Assembly: GCF_903913935.1 (NCBI RefSeq)
Contig: NZ_CAIWNH010000217.1
Location: forward strand, 1 to 43,608
Direction of reading: 5' to 3'
DNA length: 43,608 bases
Source of the DNA: an uncultured Mucilaginibacter sp.
GTDB taxonomy: Bacteria > Bacteroidota > Bacteroidia > Sphingobacteriales > Sphingobacteriaceae
Position numbers and translations under genes: made by a program. Each line of letters starts with the position of its first letter. Within the stretch, counting starts at the first letter, position 1. Below the pieces are notes generated by a model. The model saw only the letters and a list, made by a program, of their open reading frames with translations. It was not told the DNA's origin and searched no databases. Of the stretch, positions 145-34,738 are shown in pieces.

Positions 145-211
145 CGCAAATTTTTGAGGTGTCATCGTTACACTATTTACAGCCGATTAAGCCTGTTTTA
201 ACCAGATAAAT

Positions 212-1648
212 ATGAAATTACAACATAACCGAACTAAGATTGTCGCCACAATGGGGCCCGCATCGGCAAAAAAAGATGTTTTATTAGCCATGATAAGGGC
301 CGGTGTTAATATTTGCCGCCTTAATTTTTCACACGGAAAAGCCCAGGACCATAAGGCAGTAATCGATACCATTCGCGAAATTAATGACCAGTATAAAACC
401 AATGTAGGTATCCTTGCTGACCTGCAGGGCCCGAAAATCCGTATCGGGTTGGTAAAAGATGGCGGTATACACCTGGTTAATGGTACACGTATTAATATTA
501 CAACGCACGAATGCATAGGGAGTGAAAATGGTATATATATCACTTATGAAACCTTTCCGCAGGATGTGCAGCCGGATGAAATTATTTTGCTGGATGACGG
601 AAAAATCCAGATGCGGGTGATTGAAACCAACAGGCAGGATACAGTAGTTTGTGAAGTGGTGCATGGCGGGATTTTAACCAGCCGTAAAGGTGTAAACCTT
701 CCCAATACCAAAGTATCTATCCCAAGCTTAACCGAAGAAGATCTTGAAAATTTAAAATATGCCCTTGAATGGGATGTGGACTGGATCGGCCTTTCATTTG
801 TACGTACCGGTCAGGATATTTTAGACCTGAAACGCATTATCAGCGAAAGTGGAAAAGCGGCTAAAGTGATCGCCAAGGTTGAAAAGCCCGAAGCGATTGA
901 TAATATCGATGCTATTATAGCCGCTACCGACGGTGTAATGGTTGCCCGTGGCGACCTGGGCGTTGAAATGCCTTTGGAAGAAGTTCCGCTACTGCAAAAG
1001 ATGATCGCCCGCAAATGCCGCGAGGCCTCAAAACCGGTAATTGTTGCCACCCAGATGCTGGAATCAATGATCACTACCCCGCGCCCAACCCGTGCCGAAG
1101 TAAACGACGTTGCCAATTCAGTACTTGATGGCGCTGACGCCGTGATGCTGAGCGGTGAAACATCTGTTGGCGAGTTCCCGGTGATCGTTATTGAAACAAT
1201 GGCCAAAATTGTGCGAAATGTGGAAGAGCTTGGCTATCCGTTTAATATGGATAAATCAAGCAAAAAAGATCCGTCTTCACCTGATTACCTTATCGACGCC
1301 GTTTGCGGTTCGGCAGTTTATTTAGCTGAACACACCAATGCCGCCGGTATAGTTTCCATGACATCGTCGGGTTATACAGCCTTTGAAATATCAAGCTACA
1401 GGCCTAAAGCCGGCACTTATATTTTTACTTCAAACAAACACCTGTTAAATGCCTTAAGCCTGCTTTGGGGCGTAAAAACATTTTATTACGATAAGTTAGA
1501 AAGCACCGATCAAACCATAAGCGACGTAAACAATATCCTTAAGCAAGCTAACCTGGTACAGGAAGGTGATGTGGTGATCAATACCGCCGCTATCCCTATC
1601 AGGAAACAGGGAAAAACCAATATGCTTAAGGTGGCGATTATTGAGTAG
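212..1648 (+). CDS. pyk: Pyruvate kinase
   Basis: Pyruvate kinase transfers phosphate from phosphoenolpyruvate to ADP in the last step of glycolysis, in the cytoplasm. The 478-residue length is normal for the bacterial enzyme. Visible family motifs are KIVATMGPAS near residue 9, NICRLNFSHG near 33, ADLQGPKIRIG near 69, the signature VIAKVEKPEAI with the catalytic Lys at about 222, VARGDLGVE near 244 and MLSGETSVGEFPV in the second half. The ATG at 212 follows the IPExxxVDY-type stop by 67 bp, so the two may be co-transcribed. A large imperfect palindrome follows the stop codon. No damage is seen. Confidence 0.97.
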   Translation: MKLQHNRTKIVATMGPASAKKDVLLAMIRAGVNICRLNFSHGKAQDHKAVIDTIREINDQYKTNVGILADLQGPKIRIGLVKDGGIHLVNGTRINITTHECIGSENGIYITYETFPQDVQPDEIILLDDGKIQMRVIETNRQDTVVCEVVHGGILTSRKGVNLPNTKVSIPSLTEEDLENLKYALEWDVDWIGLSFVRTGQDILDLKRIISESGKAAKVIAKVEKPEAIDNIDAIIAATDGVMVARGDLGVEMPLEEVPLLQKMIARKCREASKPVIVATQMLESMITTPRPTRAEVNDVANSVLDGADAVMLSGETSVGEFPVIVIETMAKIVRNVEELGYPFNMDKSSKKDPSSPDYLIDAVCGSAVYLAEHTNAAGIVSMTSSGYTAFEISSYRPKAGTYIFTSNKHLLNALSLLWGVKTFYYDKLESTDQTISDVNNILKQANLVQEGDVVINTAAIPIRKQGKTNMLKVAIIE

Positions 1649-8853: not shown

Positions 8854-9219
8854 ATGGAACCATTAGTAAACCAGGACAACGGTAAAACCGTTGGTATTGT
8901 TAGCTATCTCACTTTCATTGGATGGCTCATCGCCTATTTCGGCATGCATCAAAGCAACAAAACAAGTTTAGGCAGTTATCAACTGAGGCAAACGCTGCTG
9001 CTGCACATTATCTCAACAGGATTATGGATTTTAATGACTTTTGTCTTTGGCGCCATGTTTTTTGTCGGTGGCTTTTGGGCGTTGTATTACCTTTACAGGT
9101 TACTTGAACTTGCCCTTTTTGTGCTATGGATCATCGGCCTTATCGGCGCTATAAACGCCGAGGAAAAACCTATCCCCCTAATAGGTAAAATGGCACAGGG
9201 TATGTTTGCAGGGATATGA
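8854..9219 (+). CDS. DUF4870-like small membrane protein
   Basis: The 121-residue protein has three or four predicted TM stretches: about 14-30, 48-70 and 75-100, the last possibly two helices. The pattern VGIVSYLTFIGWLIAYF, then a soluble turn, SYQLRQTLLLHI and a C-terminal FVLWIIGLIGAINAEEKPIPLIG, is typical of DUF4870/Tic20-like proteins, whose role is unknown. It starts at the ATG at 8854, with no clear promoter and no Shine-Dalgarno. It is convergent with the next gene. Confidence 0.75.
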   Translation: MEPLVNQDNGKTVGIVSYLTFIGWLIAYFGMHQSNKTSLGSYQLRQTLLLHIISTGLWILMTFVFGAMFFVGGFWALYYLYRLLELALFVLWIIGLIGAINAEEKPIPLIGKMAQGMFAGI

Positions 9220-9292: not shown

Positions 9293-10438
9293 CTACAGCA
9301 GCAAAGCGTCCACGTAATGCGCATGCACGATCCCCTCGCATGGCGACCATGAAAACACGGTAAACCTGCCGTCCTGGGATGAAACCAGGGCGACGGCATC
9401 ACGTTGGTTAAACACAAATTGCGCCGCCGAGAGGTGCCTGGTACCTCCATTTTGTGAAGGATGGATAACCATGCCGATATTACCTATTACAGGTTCGGTC
9501 ACCAGCATTTGTTCAACTGAGCCGCCGTTTGACGACAGCCCTATTTTAGCGCCGAAGGCAAGCAATTCCATTTCGTCGTTAATGATCGTAGCGCCGTCCA
9601 CCGCGGTAAGGCCTGCAACATTTTCAACGGTACGGTTAACTTCCTCCTGCCAGTGTACCAGGTCGTGGCCGCTTACTTTTTGTTCCATCAATTTCCTGAG
9701 CTCATCAAAGGCAGGGGTAACAGGATAGGTGATGGGGTGAATAATGGAATCGCGCCAGGTATCATTATCTTTCGGCACTACTAACAATATGCCGCCATGC
9801 CCGTGTGCCCGCATGGAAGCAGCCAATTGCACCAGCATATTTACCGAATCGTTCCACCCGGTTGGGGAATTATAATCAATTAGCGACGTTAGCATGGCGG
9901 GGCAGTCGGGCAGGCTCTTACTGTCTTCATCAATGATCTTTATTTCATCTCCTTTTAACACAGCAACGTTGATGAATTTTCCAAAACCTTTAATGCGGCG
10001 GTGCTTTACAACTAACAAACCGGGTTCAATAACCTCCAGCACAAAGCAGCAATCGGGTATGGAACGTGTGGTGCCCCAAACATAAAGGTCGCCATTTTCA
10101 TCATCCCAGATGCCCAGGTGAATGCCCGATCGCTCAACCGCCGGCGCTAGTTTGGTAAGTACATAAGGGGTTAATAATATGCGTTCTTGAAAGACGAGCG
10201 GCTGCCCCGCGAGTTGCGGCGGCAAATAAGCCAGTGATATTTTGGGCGACCGGCTCTCTTCCTTTCGCAAACTGGCCCAAAAAGCCACGTCAATTACCGA
10301 GCTGATCACCCCGATGGATGGCGCGGGTGCAAGCTCATCGCCCCCTTGCAGCAAAGCGGCCTGCAGCAAACGTTCAAAATGGCTTTCAATGGCGGGAGCG
10401 ACAGTTGCCGCAGCCTGGTAGGTTGATCTGTAGGTCAT
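9293..10438 (-). CDS. Diadenylate-cyclase-fold protein, possibly DACNV type
   Basis: The 381-residue protein has no signal peptide or TM helix. Its last third resembles the DisA_N/DAC domain that makes or binds c-di-AMP: TAVDGATIIND at 278-288 contains the DGA motif (281-283), and GGTRHLSAAQF at 331-341 matches the G-T-R-H-x-x-A motif that contacts ATP in diadenylate cyclases, followed by AVALVSSQDGRFTVFSW. The N-terminal ~230 residues are a separate region with strands and the phrase ISLAYLPPQ. Computational surveys have described DAC-like predicted nucleotide sensors in bacteria (names such as DACNV), and this fits that description. Whether it is catalytic is unknown. It is a stand-alone gene. 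Confidence 0.6.
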   Translation of the reverse strand: MTYRSTYQAAATVAPAIESHFERLLQAALLQGGDELAPAPSIGVISSVIDVAFWASLRKEESRSPKISLAYLPPQLAGQPLVFQERILLTPYVLTKLAPAVERSGIHLGIWDDENGDLYVWGTTRSIPDCCFVLEVIEPGLLVVKHRRIKGFGKFINVAVLKGDEIKIIDEDSKSLPDCPAMLTSLIDYNSPTGWNDSVNMLVQLAASMRAHGHGGILLVVPKDNDTWRDSIIHPITYPVTPAFDELRKLMEQKVSGHDLVHWQEEVNRTVENVAGLTAVDGATIINDEMELLAFGAKIGLSSNGGSVEQMLVTEPVIGNIGMVIHPSQNGGTRHLSAAQFVFNQRDAVALVSSQDGRFTVFSWSPCEGIVHAHYVDALLL

Positions 10439-10766
10439 TTATACTGGATACAATTTAATATGCCCCTAAATTACCGCTATTATATTTTCAACGCTAAAAT
10501 TAGTAGGAAGTATTACATAAGGATGGTTATTTAGTGAATGGTTGATTGGGTTAGATTGAGTTGATTAGGTCAGCTAATCAACTACTCACTTAATCAACCC
10601 AATCAACTAACTCTCCATAGTATAAAAACCAATATTCGTCGGTATATTCGAGATATCTGTCTGTTTATTTTCTTTTTTAAAAAATATTATTTACAATTGT
10701 GTATTATTGACACAATGACCAATTGTATTTAGAACCAATTATCAATTAAACTTTTAAATCATAAAA
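10439..10766. other. Intergenic region between divergent genes
   Basis: This 328-bp gap separates the start of the DAC-like gene from the start of the GH3 gene. It contains a long imperfect palindrome at 10536-10612 and, nearer GH3, an AT-rich stretch with the dyad TTGTGT(7)ACACAA at 10697-10715 and the 8-bp palindrome ACAATTGT at 10693-10700. No ORF is seen. The dyad could be an operator for the GH3 gene, but this is a guess. Confidence 0.4.
10536..10612. repeat. Imperfect palindrome of TTGATTGGGTTAG words
   Basis: Left arm 10536-10569 (GGTTGATTGGGTTAG then GAGTTGATTAGG) pairs imperfectly with right arm 10573-10612 (CTAATCAACT, TTAATCAACCCAATCAACT). It lies between two divergent 5' ends, where a terminator is not expected. 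Confidence 0.6.
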
Positions 10767-30353: not shown

Positions 30354-31575
30354 TTTCCTTTTCATAAGCAACTTGTAATTGTAATAGCTCCTGCAAACGA
30401 TCAAGGGCAACCATTTTATTTTGCTGCATGTCTTTAATTCCATCCAATACGGGTTGCAGGTCGCCCGTATTTTGCTCATAAGCCTGTAGGGCGGTTTTAT
30501 AACTATTTTGTAAAGCCGGGATAATGTTTAACCGGTAATTATTCAATTGCCTTTTTTTGCTGCTCATCTCTGCTTTTATTCCAGCCAATTGGCCACGAGC
30601 CTGGTTCAGGATATCCAGTTTATTTTGCTGCAATTCGGCTACCTCATATTTTATCCCTTTCAAATTGGCTTTGTATTCTTTGGAAGACCAGGAAACTATA
30701 GGTATGGTGACTGACCCCATCAAGATGTACTGATTAGCCATACCGCCGTAACTGAACATGTGGCCCGTCTGGATACCAAAATCGGGTTTACGCTTACTGT
30801 TTTCTACCTGCGCATTGAGTTGCTGCAATTCAATATTCCGGTTGATACTTTTAATATCACTGCGGGAAGCTGCCAATGCAGAGGTATCAGTCAGCGCCGA
30901 CTCGTAATCTTTAACCACTATTGCCGTATCCACCAAAAATTCAGTTTGCTGGTCGCGGTTCATCAGGGTATTCAGCAGTATATTTTTCTGGCGGATGTCG
31001 TTATTAAGCTGCTCCCTGGTATTATCCAGTTCAAAAAGATCAGCTTTTGCTTTGTAGATATTGCTCAGCTTTTCCTTGCCGTAGGTTAACCTGATATTGG
31101 CATCTTTCAGCATATACTCCAGCAGGGTTTGTGTGCTTTTCAGGATATTAAGCTTTTTTTCTAAAACCACCCGGTCGTAGTAAGCCTGTTTAGCCTGGGC
31201 GACCAGCTGGTTTTTCATATAGTTTTTATCGGCAGCGGTTACTTTCGATAAGCCCTGCATGTAATTTTCCTTTGCCCGGAGTTTGGCGCCGTTGGTAAAC
31301 ATCTGTTCGGCGGTGATCATAAACGAACCGGCGGACGGGTTGAAACTGTAAGGCACCTGGTATTGGCCGGCGCTTATTTTGGGCGCATCCAGGTTTTTTG
31401 CACCAGTGGCATAAGCATCCTGCGCCCCGATCTTTGAATCATAGGCTAGCAGGGCCGGGTTGCCCGCCACGCGTGCCAGCACACTATCCAAAGCCAATCG
31501 CTGCTGTGCATTTGCTGCTGAAAATCCTGCCAGCCAAATGGTTGCTACATATATAATTCGATTTCTTGTTTTCAT
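30340..31575 (-). CDS. TolC-family outer membrane channel (CusC-like)
   Basis: TolC-family proteins form the outer-membrane tunnel of tripartite exporters. The 411-residue protein has a signal peptide (ending ANAQ) and two similar halves rich in long helices. Visible stretches are LDSVLARVAGNPALLAYDSKI, QAKQAYYDRVVLEKKL, ELDNTREQLNNDIRQKNILLNTLMNRD and a C-terminal half ending LLQLQVAYEKE. It lies between the pump and the adaptors; its ATG shares one base with the pump stop (TAATG), indicating translational coupling. Confidence 0.88.
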   Translation of the reverse strand: MKTRNRIIYVATIWLAGFSAANAQQRLALDSVLARVAGNPALLAYDSKIGAQDAYATGAKNLDAPKISAGQYQVPYSFNPSAGSFMITAEQMFTNGAKLRAKENYMQGLSKVTAADKNYMKNQLVAQAKQAYYDRVVLEKKLNILKSTQTLLEYMLKDANIRLTYGKEKLSNIYKAKADLFELDNTREQLNNDIRQKNILLNTLMNRDQQTEFLVDTAIVVKDYESALTDTSALAASRSDIKSINRNIELQQLNAQVENSKRKPDFGIQTGHMFSYGGMANQYILMGSVTIPIVSWSSKEYKANLKGIKYEVAELQQNKLDILNQARGQLAGIKAEMSSKKRQLNNYRLNIIPALQNSYKTALQAYEQNTGDLQPVLDGIKDMQQNKMVALDRLQELLQLQVAYEKENEEY

Positions 31576-33467
31576 TATTCTTTCACCTCCAACACATCCA
31601 GTTTTCCGTATTTTTTTAATTCATATTCTTTTACCATCAGGAAGATCAATGGGGTAACCAATAAAATGTGGGTAGACGATGTTAATACACCCCCAATCAT
31701 CGGCAATACAATCGGCACCATTACGTCGCTGCCCGTTCCTGTCGACCATAACACCGGCACCAGGCCGAATAGGGCCACACAAACAGTCATTAATTTCGGT
31801 CTCAGGCGCTTTACCGCGCCGTTCATTACATAAATCCGCAAGTCTTCCCGGGTAATGGTTTCTTTTGAATTTCCTTTTAACGCGACCAATTGCTGCATGG
31901 CGTCATTCAGGTAGATCACCATTACAATCCCTGTTTCTACCGCGATGCCAAACAGGGCGATAAAACCTACCGCGACAGCTACCGATAAATGCACCCCGAA
32001 AAAATAAACCATATAAGCGCCGCCAATCAAAGCAAAAGGAATGCTGATCAAACTAAAAAATGCTTCGCGGATGGAGTGGAAAGCAAAATAAAGGCAGGCG
32101 AAAATGATGATCAACACAATCGGTAAAATCATGATTAAAGTATGCTGCGCCCGTACCATATTTTCATACTGGCCGCTCCATTCAATAAAATAGCCTTTGG
32201 GCAGGGTTTTTACCATGCTGTTCAGCTTGTTTTGCGCTTCGGCAACGGTGCTGCCCAAATCCCTGTCGCGTACGTTAAACAGTACCGTCCCCCGTAACAA
32301 GGCATTTTCAGACTGAATCATCGCCGGGCCATCGCTGATTTTAATGTCCGCTACTGCAGATAAAGGAATTGGGCCGCTTGCCGGGGTCTGCACCAGCGTA
32401 CGTTTGATCTGGTCGAGGTTATTGCGGTAATCCTGTGCGAAACGAAGGTTCACGCTAAAGCGCCTCCGGCCTTCAATGGTTGGCGTAAGGTTCATGCCGC
32501 CCAGGGCGCTTTCTACCACTTCGTTCACATCATCCACGCTTAAACCGTAACGGCCAATGGCATCCTTATTTACCTCGATATCCAGGTATTTGCCGCCGGT
32601 TATCGGGTCAACATATAGATCTTTCACCCCATTAATACCCTGCAATGCCTGTTTCATCTGGTTGGATAGCGCATAAATAGTATCCAGGTTTTGTCCGTAA
32701 ACTTTCAGCCCCACATCGGTACGGATGCCGGTCGACAGCATATTGATGCGGTTAATGATGGGCTGCGTCCAGCCGTTTACTACGCCAGGGATCTGCAGTT
32801 TGGCATTTAGCTCATTAATAATATCTTCCTTTTTAATGCCTTTGCGCCATTCTTCGGCAGGTTTTAGCAGGATGATAGTTTCCACCATACTGATGGGCGA
32901 ATTATCCGTAGCCGTATTCGCCCTGCCTGCTTTGCCCAAAACATTTTTTACTTCGGGGATACTTTTGATGATCTTATCCTGTAACTGCAATAGCTGTTTT
33001 GCTTCAGCATTGGATATATCCGGCAGGGTAACCGGCATAAACAGGATAGTGCCTTCATCCAGCGGCGGCATAAATTCGCTGCCCAGGCTCAATAAAAGCG
33101 GTATACTGATCAACAGCGCGATAATATTAATGGCCAGTGTTGTTTTTCGCCAATGCGTACACCAGTTTAATATAGGGTGATATATTTTTTGTAAACCACT
33201 GTTTAGCGGATTATGTTCATCGGTCCTTAATTTCCCTTTCAGGAAGAAGGAGATCAGCACCGGCGCCAGGGTTACCGCCAGGATGGCATCAATGGCCAGG
33301 ATAAAGGTTTTTGTCCATGCCAGCGGGCCGAACAATTTGCCCTCCTGTCCTTCCAGTAAAAATACCGGCAGGAACGAAGCCACGATAATGAGGGTGGAGA
33401 AAAACACGCCACGCCCCACCTGCTTGCAGGAAGCCTCTATAATTTTTATTCTTTCTGCTGTGGTCAT
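31575..33467 (-). CDS. cusA: CusA-like RND pump, C-terminal part (split gene)
   Basis: This 630-residue ORF carries the second part of a heavy-metal RND pump. It starts inside the TM bundle (GVFFSTLIIVASFLPVFLLEGQEG) and contains the remaining helices and the second periplasmic porter region. The three methionines that bind Cu(I)/Ag(I) in E. coli CusA have counterparts in NRINMLSTGI, ESALGGMNL and DGPAMIQSEN, pointing to a monovalent copper/silver exporter. Its ATG overlaps the stop of the N-terminal ORF by 4 bp in a different frame. A full CusA is about 1050 residues, so the two ORFs are parts of one protein. Confidence 0.88.
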   Translation of the reverse strand: MTTAERIKIIEASCKQVGRGVFFSTLIIVASFLPVFLLEGQEGKLFGPLAWTKTFILAIDAILAVTLAPVLISFFLKGKLRTDEHNPLNSGLQKIYHPILNWCTHWRKTTLAINIIALLISIPLLLSLGSEFMPPLDEGTILFMPVTLPDISNAEAKQLLQLQDKIIKSIPEVKNVLGKAGRANTATDNSPISMVETIILLKPAEEWRKGIKKEDIINELNAKLQIPGVVNGWTQPIINRINMLSTGIRTDVGLKVYGQNLDTIYALSNQMKQALQGINGVKDLYVDPITGGKYLDIEVNKDAIGRYGLSVDDVNEVVESALGGMNLTPTIEGRRRFSVNLRFAQDYRNNLDQIKRTLVQTPASGPIPLSAVADIKISDGPAMIQSENALLRGTVLFNVRDRDLGSTVAEAQNKLNSMVKTLPKGYFIEWSGQYENMVRAQHTLIMILPIVLIIIFACLYFAFHSIREAFFSLISIPFALIGGAYMVYFFGVHLSVAVAVGFIALFGIAVETGIVMVIYLNDAMQQLVALKGNSKETITREDLRIYVMNGAVKRLRPKLMTVCVALFGLVPVLWSTGTGSDVMVPIVLPMIGGVLTSSTHILLVTPLIFLMVKEYELKKYGKLDVLEVKE

Positions 33468-34738
33468 AATCTTTCTTTTTCTTGTGCAATGGATAAATTG
33501 CGGTGTGAGTTCTCTACCATTACAATCCCGTTATCTACAATTACCCCGATTGCAAGGGCAATACCAGTTAAGGACATGATATTTGAGGAAATACCAAAGG
33601 CATTCAGCAATATAAAGCTGGTGGCAACCGTAATGGGAATCTGGATAATAATGCTCAAGGCGCTACGCCAGCTAAACAGGAAGATAATGACGATGATGGA
33701 TACGGTGATCATTTCTTCGATCAGCGTGTGTTTTACGGAGCCAATGGCCCGTTCAATCAGGTCACTTCTGTCGTAAGCTATTTTAAACTTTACCCCGGGC
33801 GGCAGGCCTCTTTGCATCGCGGCCATTTTATCTTTTACCGCGTGGATCACCTTATCGGCATTTTCGCCATAACGCATTACTACAATACCACCGACGGCTT
33901 CGCCTTCGCCGTTTTCGTCAAAAATACCCAGCCGTAAGTCCCCGCCCATTTGCACGGTTGCGATATCCTTTATCCTTACAGGAACGGTATTGATGGTACC
34001 TATGGAGATGTTTTCGACATCCTGGATGCTTTTAATATACCCCAGGCCGCGCACAATATAGCCGGTGCCGTTCATCTCGAACTTGCGGCCGCCCACATCG
34101 TTGTTATTGCTTTTGACGGCTTTCAAAACCTGCGACAGCGGGATATTGTAATAATTAAGTTTGTTTGGGTCGACGCTGATCTGGTATTGCTTTTCAAAGC
34201 CGCCAAAGGAAGCTACTTCGCTTACCCCAGGCACCGTTTGCAGTCCGAATTTTACATACCAGTCCTGCAGGGCGCGTTGTTCGCCCAGGTCGATGCCTTT
34301 GGCGCCGAGGGTATACCACAGGATATGGCCCACGCCGGTGCCATCCGGTCCCAGGGTTGGGGTTATCCCTTCGGGCAACAGGCGCTGGGCGTAGTTTAAC
34401 CTTTCGAGCACACGGCTGCGCGCCCAGTAGATATCTATTTTATCTTCAAAAACAATATAAACAAAACTCATCCCGAACATGGACGTTGCGCGGATGGATT
34501 TTACTTTGGGGATACCCTGCAGGTTGCTTACCAGTGGATAGGTTACCTGGTCCTCCATAATTTGCGGACTGCGGCCCTGCCATTCGGTAAATACGATCAC
34601 CTGGCTCTCGGAAAGATCAGGAATGGCATCAATCGGGTTTTGATTGATGGAGTAAAAGCCCCATGCAAATAAAATGGCTGCGATCAGCAGAACGATGTAC
34701 CTGTTTTTTAAGGACAGGGAAATAAGTTGATTGATCAT
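33464..34738 (-). CDS. cusA: CusA-like RND pump, N-terminal part (split gene)
   Basis: This 424-residue ORF starts like CusA (MINQLISLSLKNRYIVLLIA, TM1) and includes the first periplasmic porter region (PDLSESQVIVFTEWQGR, GTGVGHILWYTLGAKG). It ends after TM4 with the proton-relay Asp in AIGVIVDNGIVMVENSHRN. The frame then stops at 33464 just where the next ORF starts at 33467. The distance from this ATG to the C-terminal stop is 3164 bp; one added base gives 1055 codons, the size of an intact CusA. Whether the halves are made separately through the ATGA overlap is open. Confidence 0.88.
   Translation of the reverse strand: MINQLISLSLKNRYIVLLIAAILFAWGFYSINQNPIDAIPDLSESQVIVFTEWQGRSPQIMEDQVTYPLVSNLQGIPKVKSIRATSMFGMSFVYIVFEDKIDIYWARSRVLERLNYAQRLLPEGITPTLGPDGTGVGHILWYTLGAKGIDLGEQRALQDWYVKFGLQTVPGVSEVASFGGFEKQYQISVDPNKLNYYNIPLSQVLKAVKSNNNDVGGRKFEMNGTGYIVRGLGYIKSIQDVENISIGTINTVPVRIKDIATVQMGGDLRLGIFDENGEGEAVGGIVVMRYGENADKVIHAVKDKMAAMQRGLPPGVKFKIAYDRSDLIERAIGSVKHTLIEEMITVSIIVIIFLFSWRSALSIIIQIPITVATSFILLNAFGISSNIMSLTGIALAIGVIVDNGIVMVENSHRNLSIAQEKERL

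Follow-up and report, generated by a model that had tools for sequence, protein, structure and literature searches.

The window, the whole stretch of 43,608 nucleotides analysed here, is contig 217 of a 603-contig, 5.26 Mb genome (96.6% complete) from a soil bacterium. Its minus strand carries, at 9293..10438, an ORF for a 381-aa protein that joins an N-terminal DACNV domain to a C-terminal part with a predicted diadenylate cyclase (DAC) fold. The sequence-only reading had placed a DGA motif at residues 281-283 and GTRH at 332-335 without naming a strand; both are encoded in this minus-strand ORF. The gene is present once in the genome, and the closest relative is a Mucilaginibacter MAG, at 97% protein identity. 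Pairwise dN/dS was 0.02-0.06 against five of six relatives, with dS saturated against the sixth and already about 2-3 in four of the other five. The ORF is under strong purifying selection. The protein had no match in NCBIfam. Its best 19-residue hydropathy is 1.58, against 2.18 in the CdaA of the same genome, giving no clear transmembrane helix, and Pfam found neither an HhH nor a DisA-linker match up to E 10; the protein does lack, as had been proposed, both the membrane helices of CdaA and the helix-hairpin domains of DisA.

Upstream of the gene is an inverted repeat (10541-10614) with perfect 12-nt arms, whose 18-base core occurs 17 times in the genome at no more than one mismatch (four copies exact; none for the backwards pattern). 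The element is an interspersed repeat. Elsewhere in the window, two minus-strand ORFs at 31575-34738 divide an RND-type permease (ACR_tran) between them, 33464-34738 matching profile positions 2-420 and 31575-33467 positions 420-1020; they share four overlapping end bases, and the gene is either naturally split or broken.

Convergent with the DACNV-DAC gene, on the plus strand at 8854-9219, lies a 121-aa ORF that has no Pfam or NCBIfam match. We compared the neighbourhoods of 68 sequences (55 loci, a further 12 of the 13 from our phylum survey, and the window); the DACNV-DAC gene was picked up in 61 of these, an antisense ORF having been chosen in the other seven. The convergent ORF family adjoins the gene in 15 of the 68, and a GH3 gene is near it in 13, all of them close Mucilaginibacter-type relatives. 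Beyond those relatives the 68 sequences have no general conserved neighbour, other small clades having other neighbours. Nor did a general partner appear in 20 further stretches (17 DACNV, the gene being missed in two, and three of the DACNG type); three related ones have a few genes in common. The survey, which used even samples of two phyla, covered 395 genomes of the window's phylum, 11 of them with DACNV (the genome of the window counted), and 297 genomes of the phylum of the Acidobacteria MAG G395, 22 of them with DACNV (G395 counted). No match to the gene was found among 72,556 plasmid and 50,697 phage records. We conclude that the gene is solitary, patchily retained and chromosomal.

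Fold of the C-terminal domain

Profile and sequence searches gave a divided picture of the C-terminal part. The Pfam DAC model (PF02457) matches residues 320-362 at 20 bits, under its cut-off of 27, and it matches 33 of 35 aligned relatives at E 1 or better, the best value being 5.4e-4. A sequence search of solved structures with the whole protein returned no DAC, and hhalign of the close relatives alone against 28 canonical DACs found nothing. These results would suit the explanation that there is no DAC at all, and that DGA and GTRH are chance motifs within another fold. When the C-terminal part of the wider, 88-row family was set against the same 28 DACs, however, hhalign gave 94.6% (E 7e-8, a single comparison, run with somewhat different settings from the close-relatives search). 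The 28 had been chosen by a DGA-RHR pattern and are therefore unable to test those motifs; L080 (wrong frame), L091 and L098 (no motif by the pattern) are not among them.

Structure prediction points the same way. The AlphaFold2 model of the full protein was built from an alignment of 35 rows (the window and 34 of the 55 loci), and because its pLDDT is 78.8 and its pTM 0.64, the placing of the two domains relative to each other is untrustworthy. All 50 Foldseek matches listed for the full model are DAC structures (E 2e-5 to 3e-4). With VIA-align the first 40 rows are all DACs, at Z 11.2-15.2, and the next row falls to Z 3.0; the best match is Mycobacterium tuberculosis DisA (9y4s; Z 15.2, rmsd 2.0, 132 residues, model residues 180-378), so the overlay on DisA that had been proposed as a check came out in favour of a DAC fold. 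Together with the invariance of the motifs described below, this makes chance motifs in an unrelated fold a very improbable explanation. The C-terminal part has, by prediction, a DAC fold despite its sub-cut-off Pfam score. The domain had been placed in the C-terminal third; it is larger, spanning residues ~180-378 (minus strand, 9305..9901).

The putative nucleotide pocket and the two branches of the family

Our first alignment comprised the window protein and 55 loci (56 rows), of which 55 reach the C-terminal part; L057, which is N-terminal only, was excluded there. In those 55 rows D281, G282, R334, H335 and L336 are constant, A283 is kept in 54, and residue 333 is T in 50 and S in five. 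The wider family has 88 rows (86 distinct), with L118 and L129 (no usable ORF), L126 (a fragment), L130 (below the cut-off) and the repeats L065 and L102-L105 left out. Conservation holds at this breadth also, contrary to the outcome that would have refuted the sequence-only reading: D and G of DGA (residues 281-283, minus strand, 9590..9598) and G, R and H of GTRHL (332-336, 9431..9445, minus strand; canonical GxRHR) stand in 88 of 88 rows, and A of DGA in 84. The motifs had been called intact, which is right for DGA and GTRH themselves but not for the wider canonical signature: RHR has become RHL, and SEE has become SQD (residues 354-356 in the hhalign register, minus strand, 9371..9379), with S354 and D356 in all 88 rows. 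Nine of the 185 DAC columns are invariant over the 88 rows, and eight of them lie in the motifs GALI, DGA, GxRHRxA and SEE (G215, D281, G282, G332, R334, H335, S354 and D356), the ninth being column 364. Of six pocket positions tested, five belong to the invariant nine (hypergeometric p 4e-7, kinship uncorrected).

A review (PMC7288161) gives ten ATP contacts for CdaA, in a construct numbering to which 100 is to be added: side-chain contacts by Leu31, Asp71, Thr102, Arg103, His104, Ser122 and Glu124, and main-chain contacts by Leu88, Gly101 and Glu123. In the hhalign register, Leu31 corresponds to position 217, Asp71 to D281, Gly101 to G332, Thr102 to T333, Arg103 to R334, His104 to H335, Ser122 to S354, Glu123 to Q355 and Glu124 to D356. 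Neither the third Arg of RHR nor the side chain of the first Glu of SEE is in this list of ten, the first Glu touching ATP through its main chain only (PMC7288161), while the metal-binding Glu of SEE is replaced by another acid, D356. The lost Arg and Glu might be taken for the mark of a dead enzyme, but in view of this list they are no proof of one. Mutant studies bear on the same residues. The single mutations D172A and R203A abolish Leptospira CdaA (PMC12974146); their counterparts in this family, D281 and R334, are unchanged across all 88 rows. Changing RHR to AAA kills both DisA of M. tuberculosis (PMC3328451) and CdaM of M. bovis (PMC13022847); because these are triple mutants, they do not show the role of the third Arg alone.

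The remaining contact, Leu88 (Leu188 in full numbering), falls on K298 (minus strand, 9545..9547) by a gapless count from DGA alone, a register that is unsure in that hhalign opens a gap within the hairpin that follows DGA; model strands at 283-287 and 292-297 agree with the gapless count. A lysine here would suit a DAC-fold synthase with a different substrate or product, such as a guanine-containing, mixed-base or linear dinucleotide, whose base pocket would differ from that of CdaA. The main chain of Leu188 reads adenine (PMC10167629), and position 217, which takes the place of the adenine-touching Leu of GALI, varies among L, S, T, I, A and M in the main branch of the family. A contact made through the main chain, however, need not leave the choice of base to the side chain, and the placing of K298 depends on the gapless count. 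We consider a different product improbable, though less so than the absence of a DAC fold.

Residues 298 and 336 divide the family into two branches. In group A (83 rows), which includes the window protein, position 336 is L in 74 rows, F in four, and M, I, V, S and Q once each, the third Arg of RHR being found in none; K298 is present in 82 rows, the exception (L114) having T. The smaller group B (L070, L071, L122, L127 and L128, 5 of the 88 rows) has R at 336, completing RHR, and E or V in place of K298. Position 333 is T or S throughout group A, and in group B T in three rows and M in two. The division corresponds to one change (SH-aLRT 98) in a 45-row tree built without columns 283, 298 and 336, at a point where long branches meet. 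The pattern at 298 and 336 resembles a residue swap, but as a single change in the tree it counts as one event. Both branches occur together in four genomes (G261, G080, G573 and G412). If the protein makes c-di-AMP, this natural RHR/RHL split offers a test of which motif residues a DAC truly requires.

The N-terminal domain

The Pfam family PF21751, 'Probable sensor domain DACNV', matches residues 35-124 (minus strand, 10067..10336) at 107.4 bits (cut-off 27, E 4e-31), and all 35 aligned relatives match it. The subfamily name DACNV that had been offered was right, and of the two profile searches proposed it is this one that exceeds its cut-off, PF02457 falling short. In Pfam, though, DACNV denotes the N-terminal partner domain, so that a c-di-AMP synthase and a DACNV-like protein are not the alternatives they had been taken for. 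Nor is the build unusual: the DACNV-DAC architecture is already catalogued, and the window protein is a member of it. The DACN names reportedly go back to a 2015 comparative-genomics paper. In the literature we searched, which lacks most subscription papers, we found no DACNV protein that had been studied by experiment. The first ~230 residues had been read as a separate partner domain; a separate domain is there, with a smaller extent of ~1-175. It is completed by a beta-strand stretch at residues 125-175 (minus strand, 9914..10066) with strands at 132-138, 141-147, 155-162 and 165-168 in both models. Within the DACNV domain, E60-E61 (minus strand, 10256..10261) are invariant in all 88 rows.

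Residues 1-181 modelled alone gave a confident structure (pLDDT 86.5, pTM 0.85). Foldseek returned nothing significant for it, the top three rows being CdaM, CdaM and DisA at E 0.24-0.49. In VIA-align, which covered Foldseek's top 1000 chains, the first 38 rows are all DACs (Z 5.8-7.7, rmsd 3.1-5.2, 105-119 residues) and the first unrelated row has Z 2.4; by the tool's own note, Z below 8 can reflect a common arrangement. A viral structure library gave nothing notable for this domain. In the models its helices and strands follow one another as they do in the DAC domain, except that the RHR helix is absent. These model comparisons permit a tentative proposal, which we think possible rather than likely: that the DACNV domain is a worn-down DAC, and that the protein holds two DAC folds in tandem on one chain, as a built-in pseudo-dimer. 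A dead N-terminal half, with no DGA, no RHR helix and its own invariant E60-E61, would then replace the second DAC that such enzymes usually require, and would sense a ligand or gate the live C-terminal half. Should DACNV prove to be a DAC in decay, the Pfam family's 'sensor' label would have to be reconsidered.

Three tests gave no support to an internal duplication at the level of sequence. Aligned by hhalign, the N-terminal and C-terminal halves scored 11.7, a value reached in 69 of 100 block shuffles and exceeded by a reversed half (13.2). In a segment test in the secondary-structure register, 14% of random placements scored as high; only the hairpin at 104-123, paired with 278-297, took first rank out of 147, and the other two segments were ordinary. 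In a gapped test, 20% of 60 shuffles reached the score.

A possible second synthase and its relatives

The genome of the window encodes a separate, ordinary CdaA of 263 aa (L002) and, at C599, a 7TMR-HDED domain (PF07697), presumably of the type that the c-di-AMP hydrolase PgpH has. PF07697 was found in 10 of 21 tested DACNV genomes, 9 of 11 in the window's phylum, by a search that also matched in E. coli. Laboratory E. coli reportedly has no DAC of its own (PMC8944544). A DAC above the Pfam cut-off is present in 34 of 36 DACNV genomes (the exceptions, G557 and G683, being of unknown completeness) and in 36 of 61 genomes drawn from the window's phylum; kinship being uncorrected, we claim no association between DACNV and DAC.

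We favour, with moderate confidence, a soluble and regulated synthase of c-di-AMP (or a related product) working beside CdaA, which on the evidence of the predicted fold, the profile match and the pocket residues is the most likely explanation. The C-terminal DAC domain would bind an NTP and metal through D281, R334, H335, S354 and D356. Two chains would pair head-to-head through their DAC domains, an arrangement needed by known DACs (PMC8573169), and the two bound nucleotides would be joined into c-di-AMP or a close cyclic dinucleotide. The DACNV domain would permit or block synthesis on some cue, so that the protein would supplement the housekeeping CdaA under certain conditions. If c-di-AMP is the product, Bacteroidota and Acidobacteriota would have in this protein a second source of it alongside CdaA, soluble and patchily retained.

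Against a synthase stand the incomplete RHR, SQD in place of SEE, the sub-cut-off Pfam DAC score and the variable position 217. As the full RHR and SEE are lacking, we do not assert that the protein is a diadenylate cyclase, only that the pocket supports its being able to work like one. The main rival is a non-catalytic sensor, in which the DAC domain would bind ATP or c-di-AMP without turnover and signal to DACNV or to a partner. It accords with the absence of the third Arg and of a full SEE, and has a precedent in degenerate GGDEF sensor domains (PMC7288161). Moreover, since 34 of the 36 DACNV genomes already have a canonical DAC, a second synthase is not needed. Yet the listed side chains of the ATP and metal pocket are, apart from the Leu of GALI, all conserved or exchanged for a similar one, and a sensor without activity would not be expected to need the ribose- and metal-side Asp so strictly. 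We therefore regard a sensor as a serious but less probable explanation than a synthase.

DisA, the best fold match of the window protein, shares with it the absence of a His before DGA, as is the case for DisA-type enzymes (PMC12974146), but has its DAC at the N terminus, followed by a linker and HhH, whereas in the window protein the DAC ends the chain and neither follows. CdaA/DacA has a C-terminal DAC like the window protein (fold Z up to 12.7), and differs in its TM helices, its His before DGA, and its RHR and SEE where the window protein has RHL and SQD. Archaeal DacZ/CdaZ is soluble, with a regulatory N-terminal domain and a C-terminal DAC (PMC6741144), and is alike in this layout; its N-terminal domain has a PK_C (pyruvate-kinase C-terminal) fold. 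The window protein has no such Pfam match, and no PK_C structure is among the matches listed for its N-terminal domain, which does not argue against such a fold.

The sister architectures DACNG-DACNH-DAC (PF21752, PF21750) also have 'probable sensor' domains ahead of the DAC and a modified SEE (SED), but their N-terminal domains are different, their DAC is above the cut-off, and RHR is RYN. Genes of this type occur in G072 and G387 (L156:4421-6055, plus strand; L157:5277-6728 and L158:5499-7025, minus strand), and G072 has several DAC-fold genes besides a canonical DAC and DACNV. In G023, which also has a canonical DAC, a 591-aa open frame contains a divergent DAC (contig C94:58454-58804, 44.9 bits).
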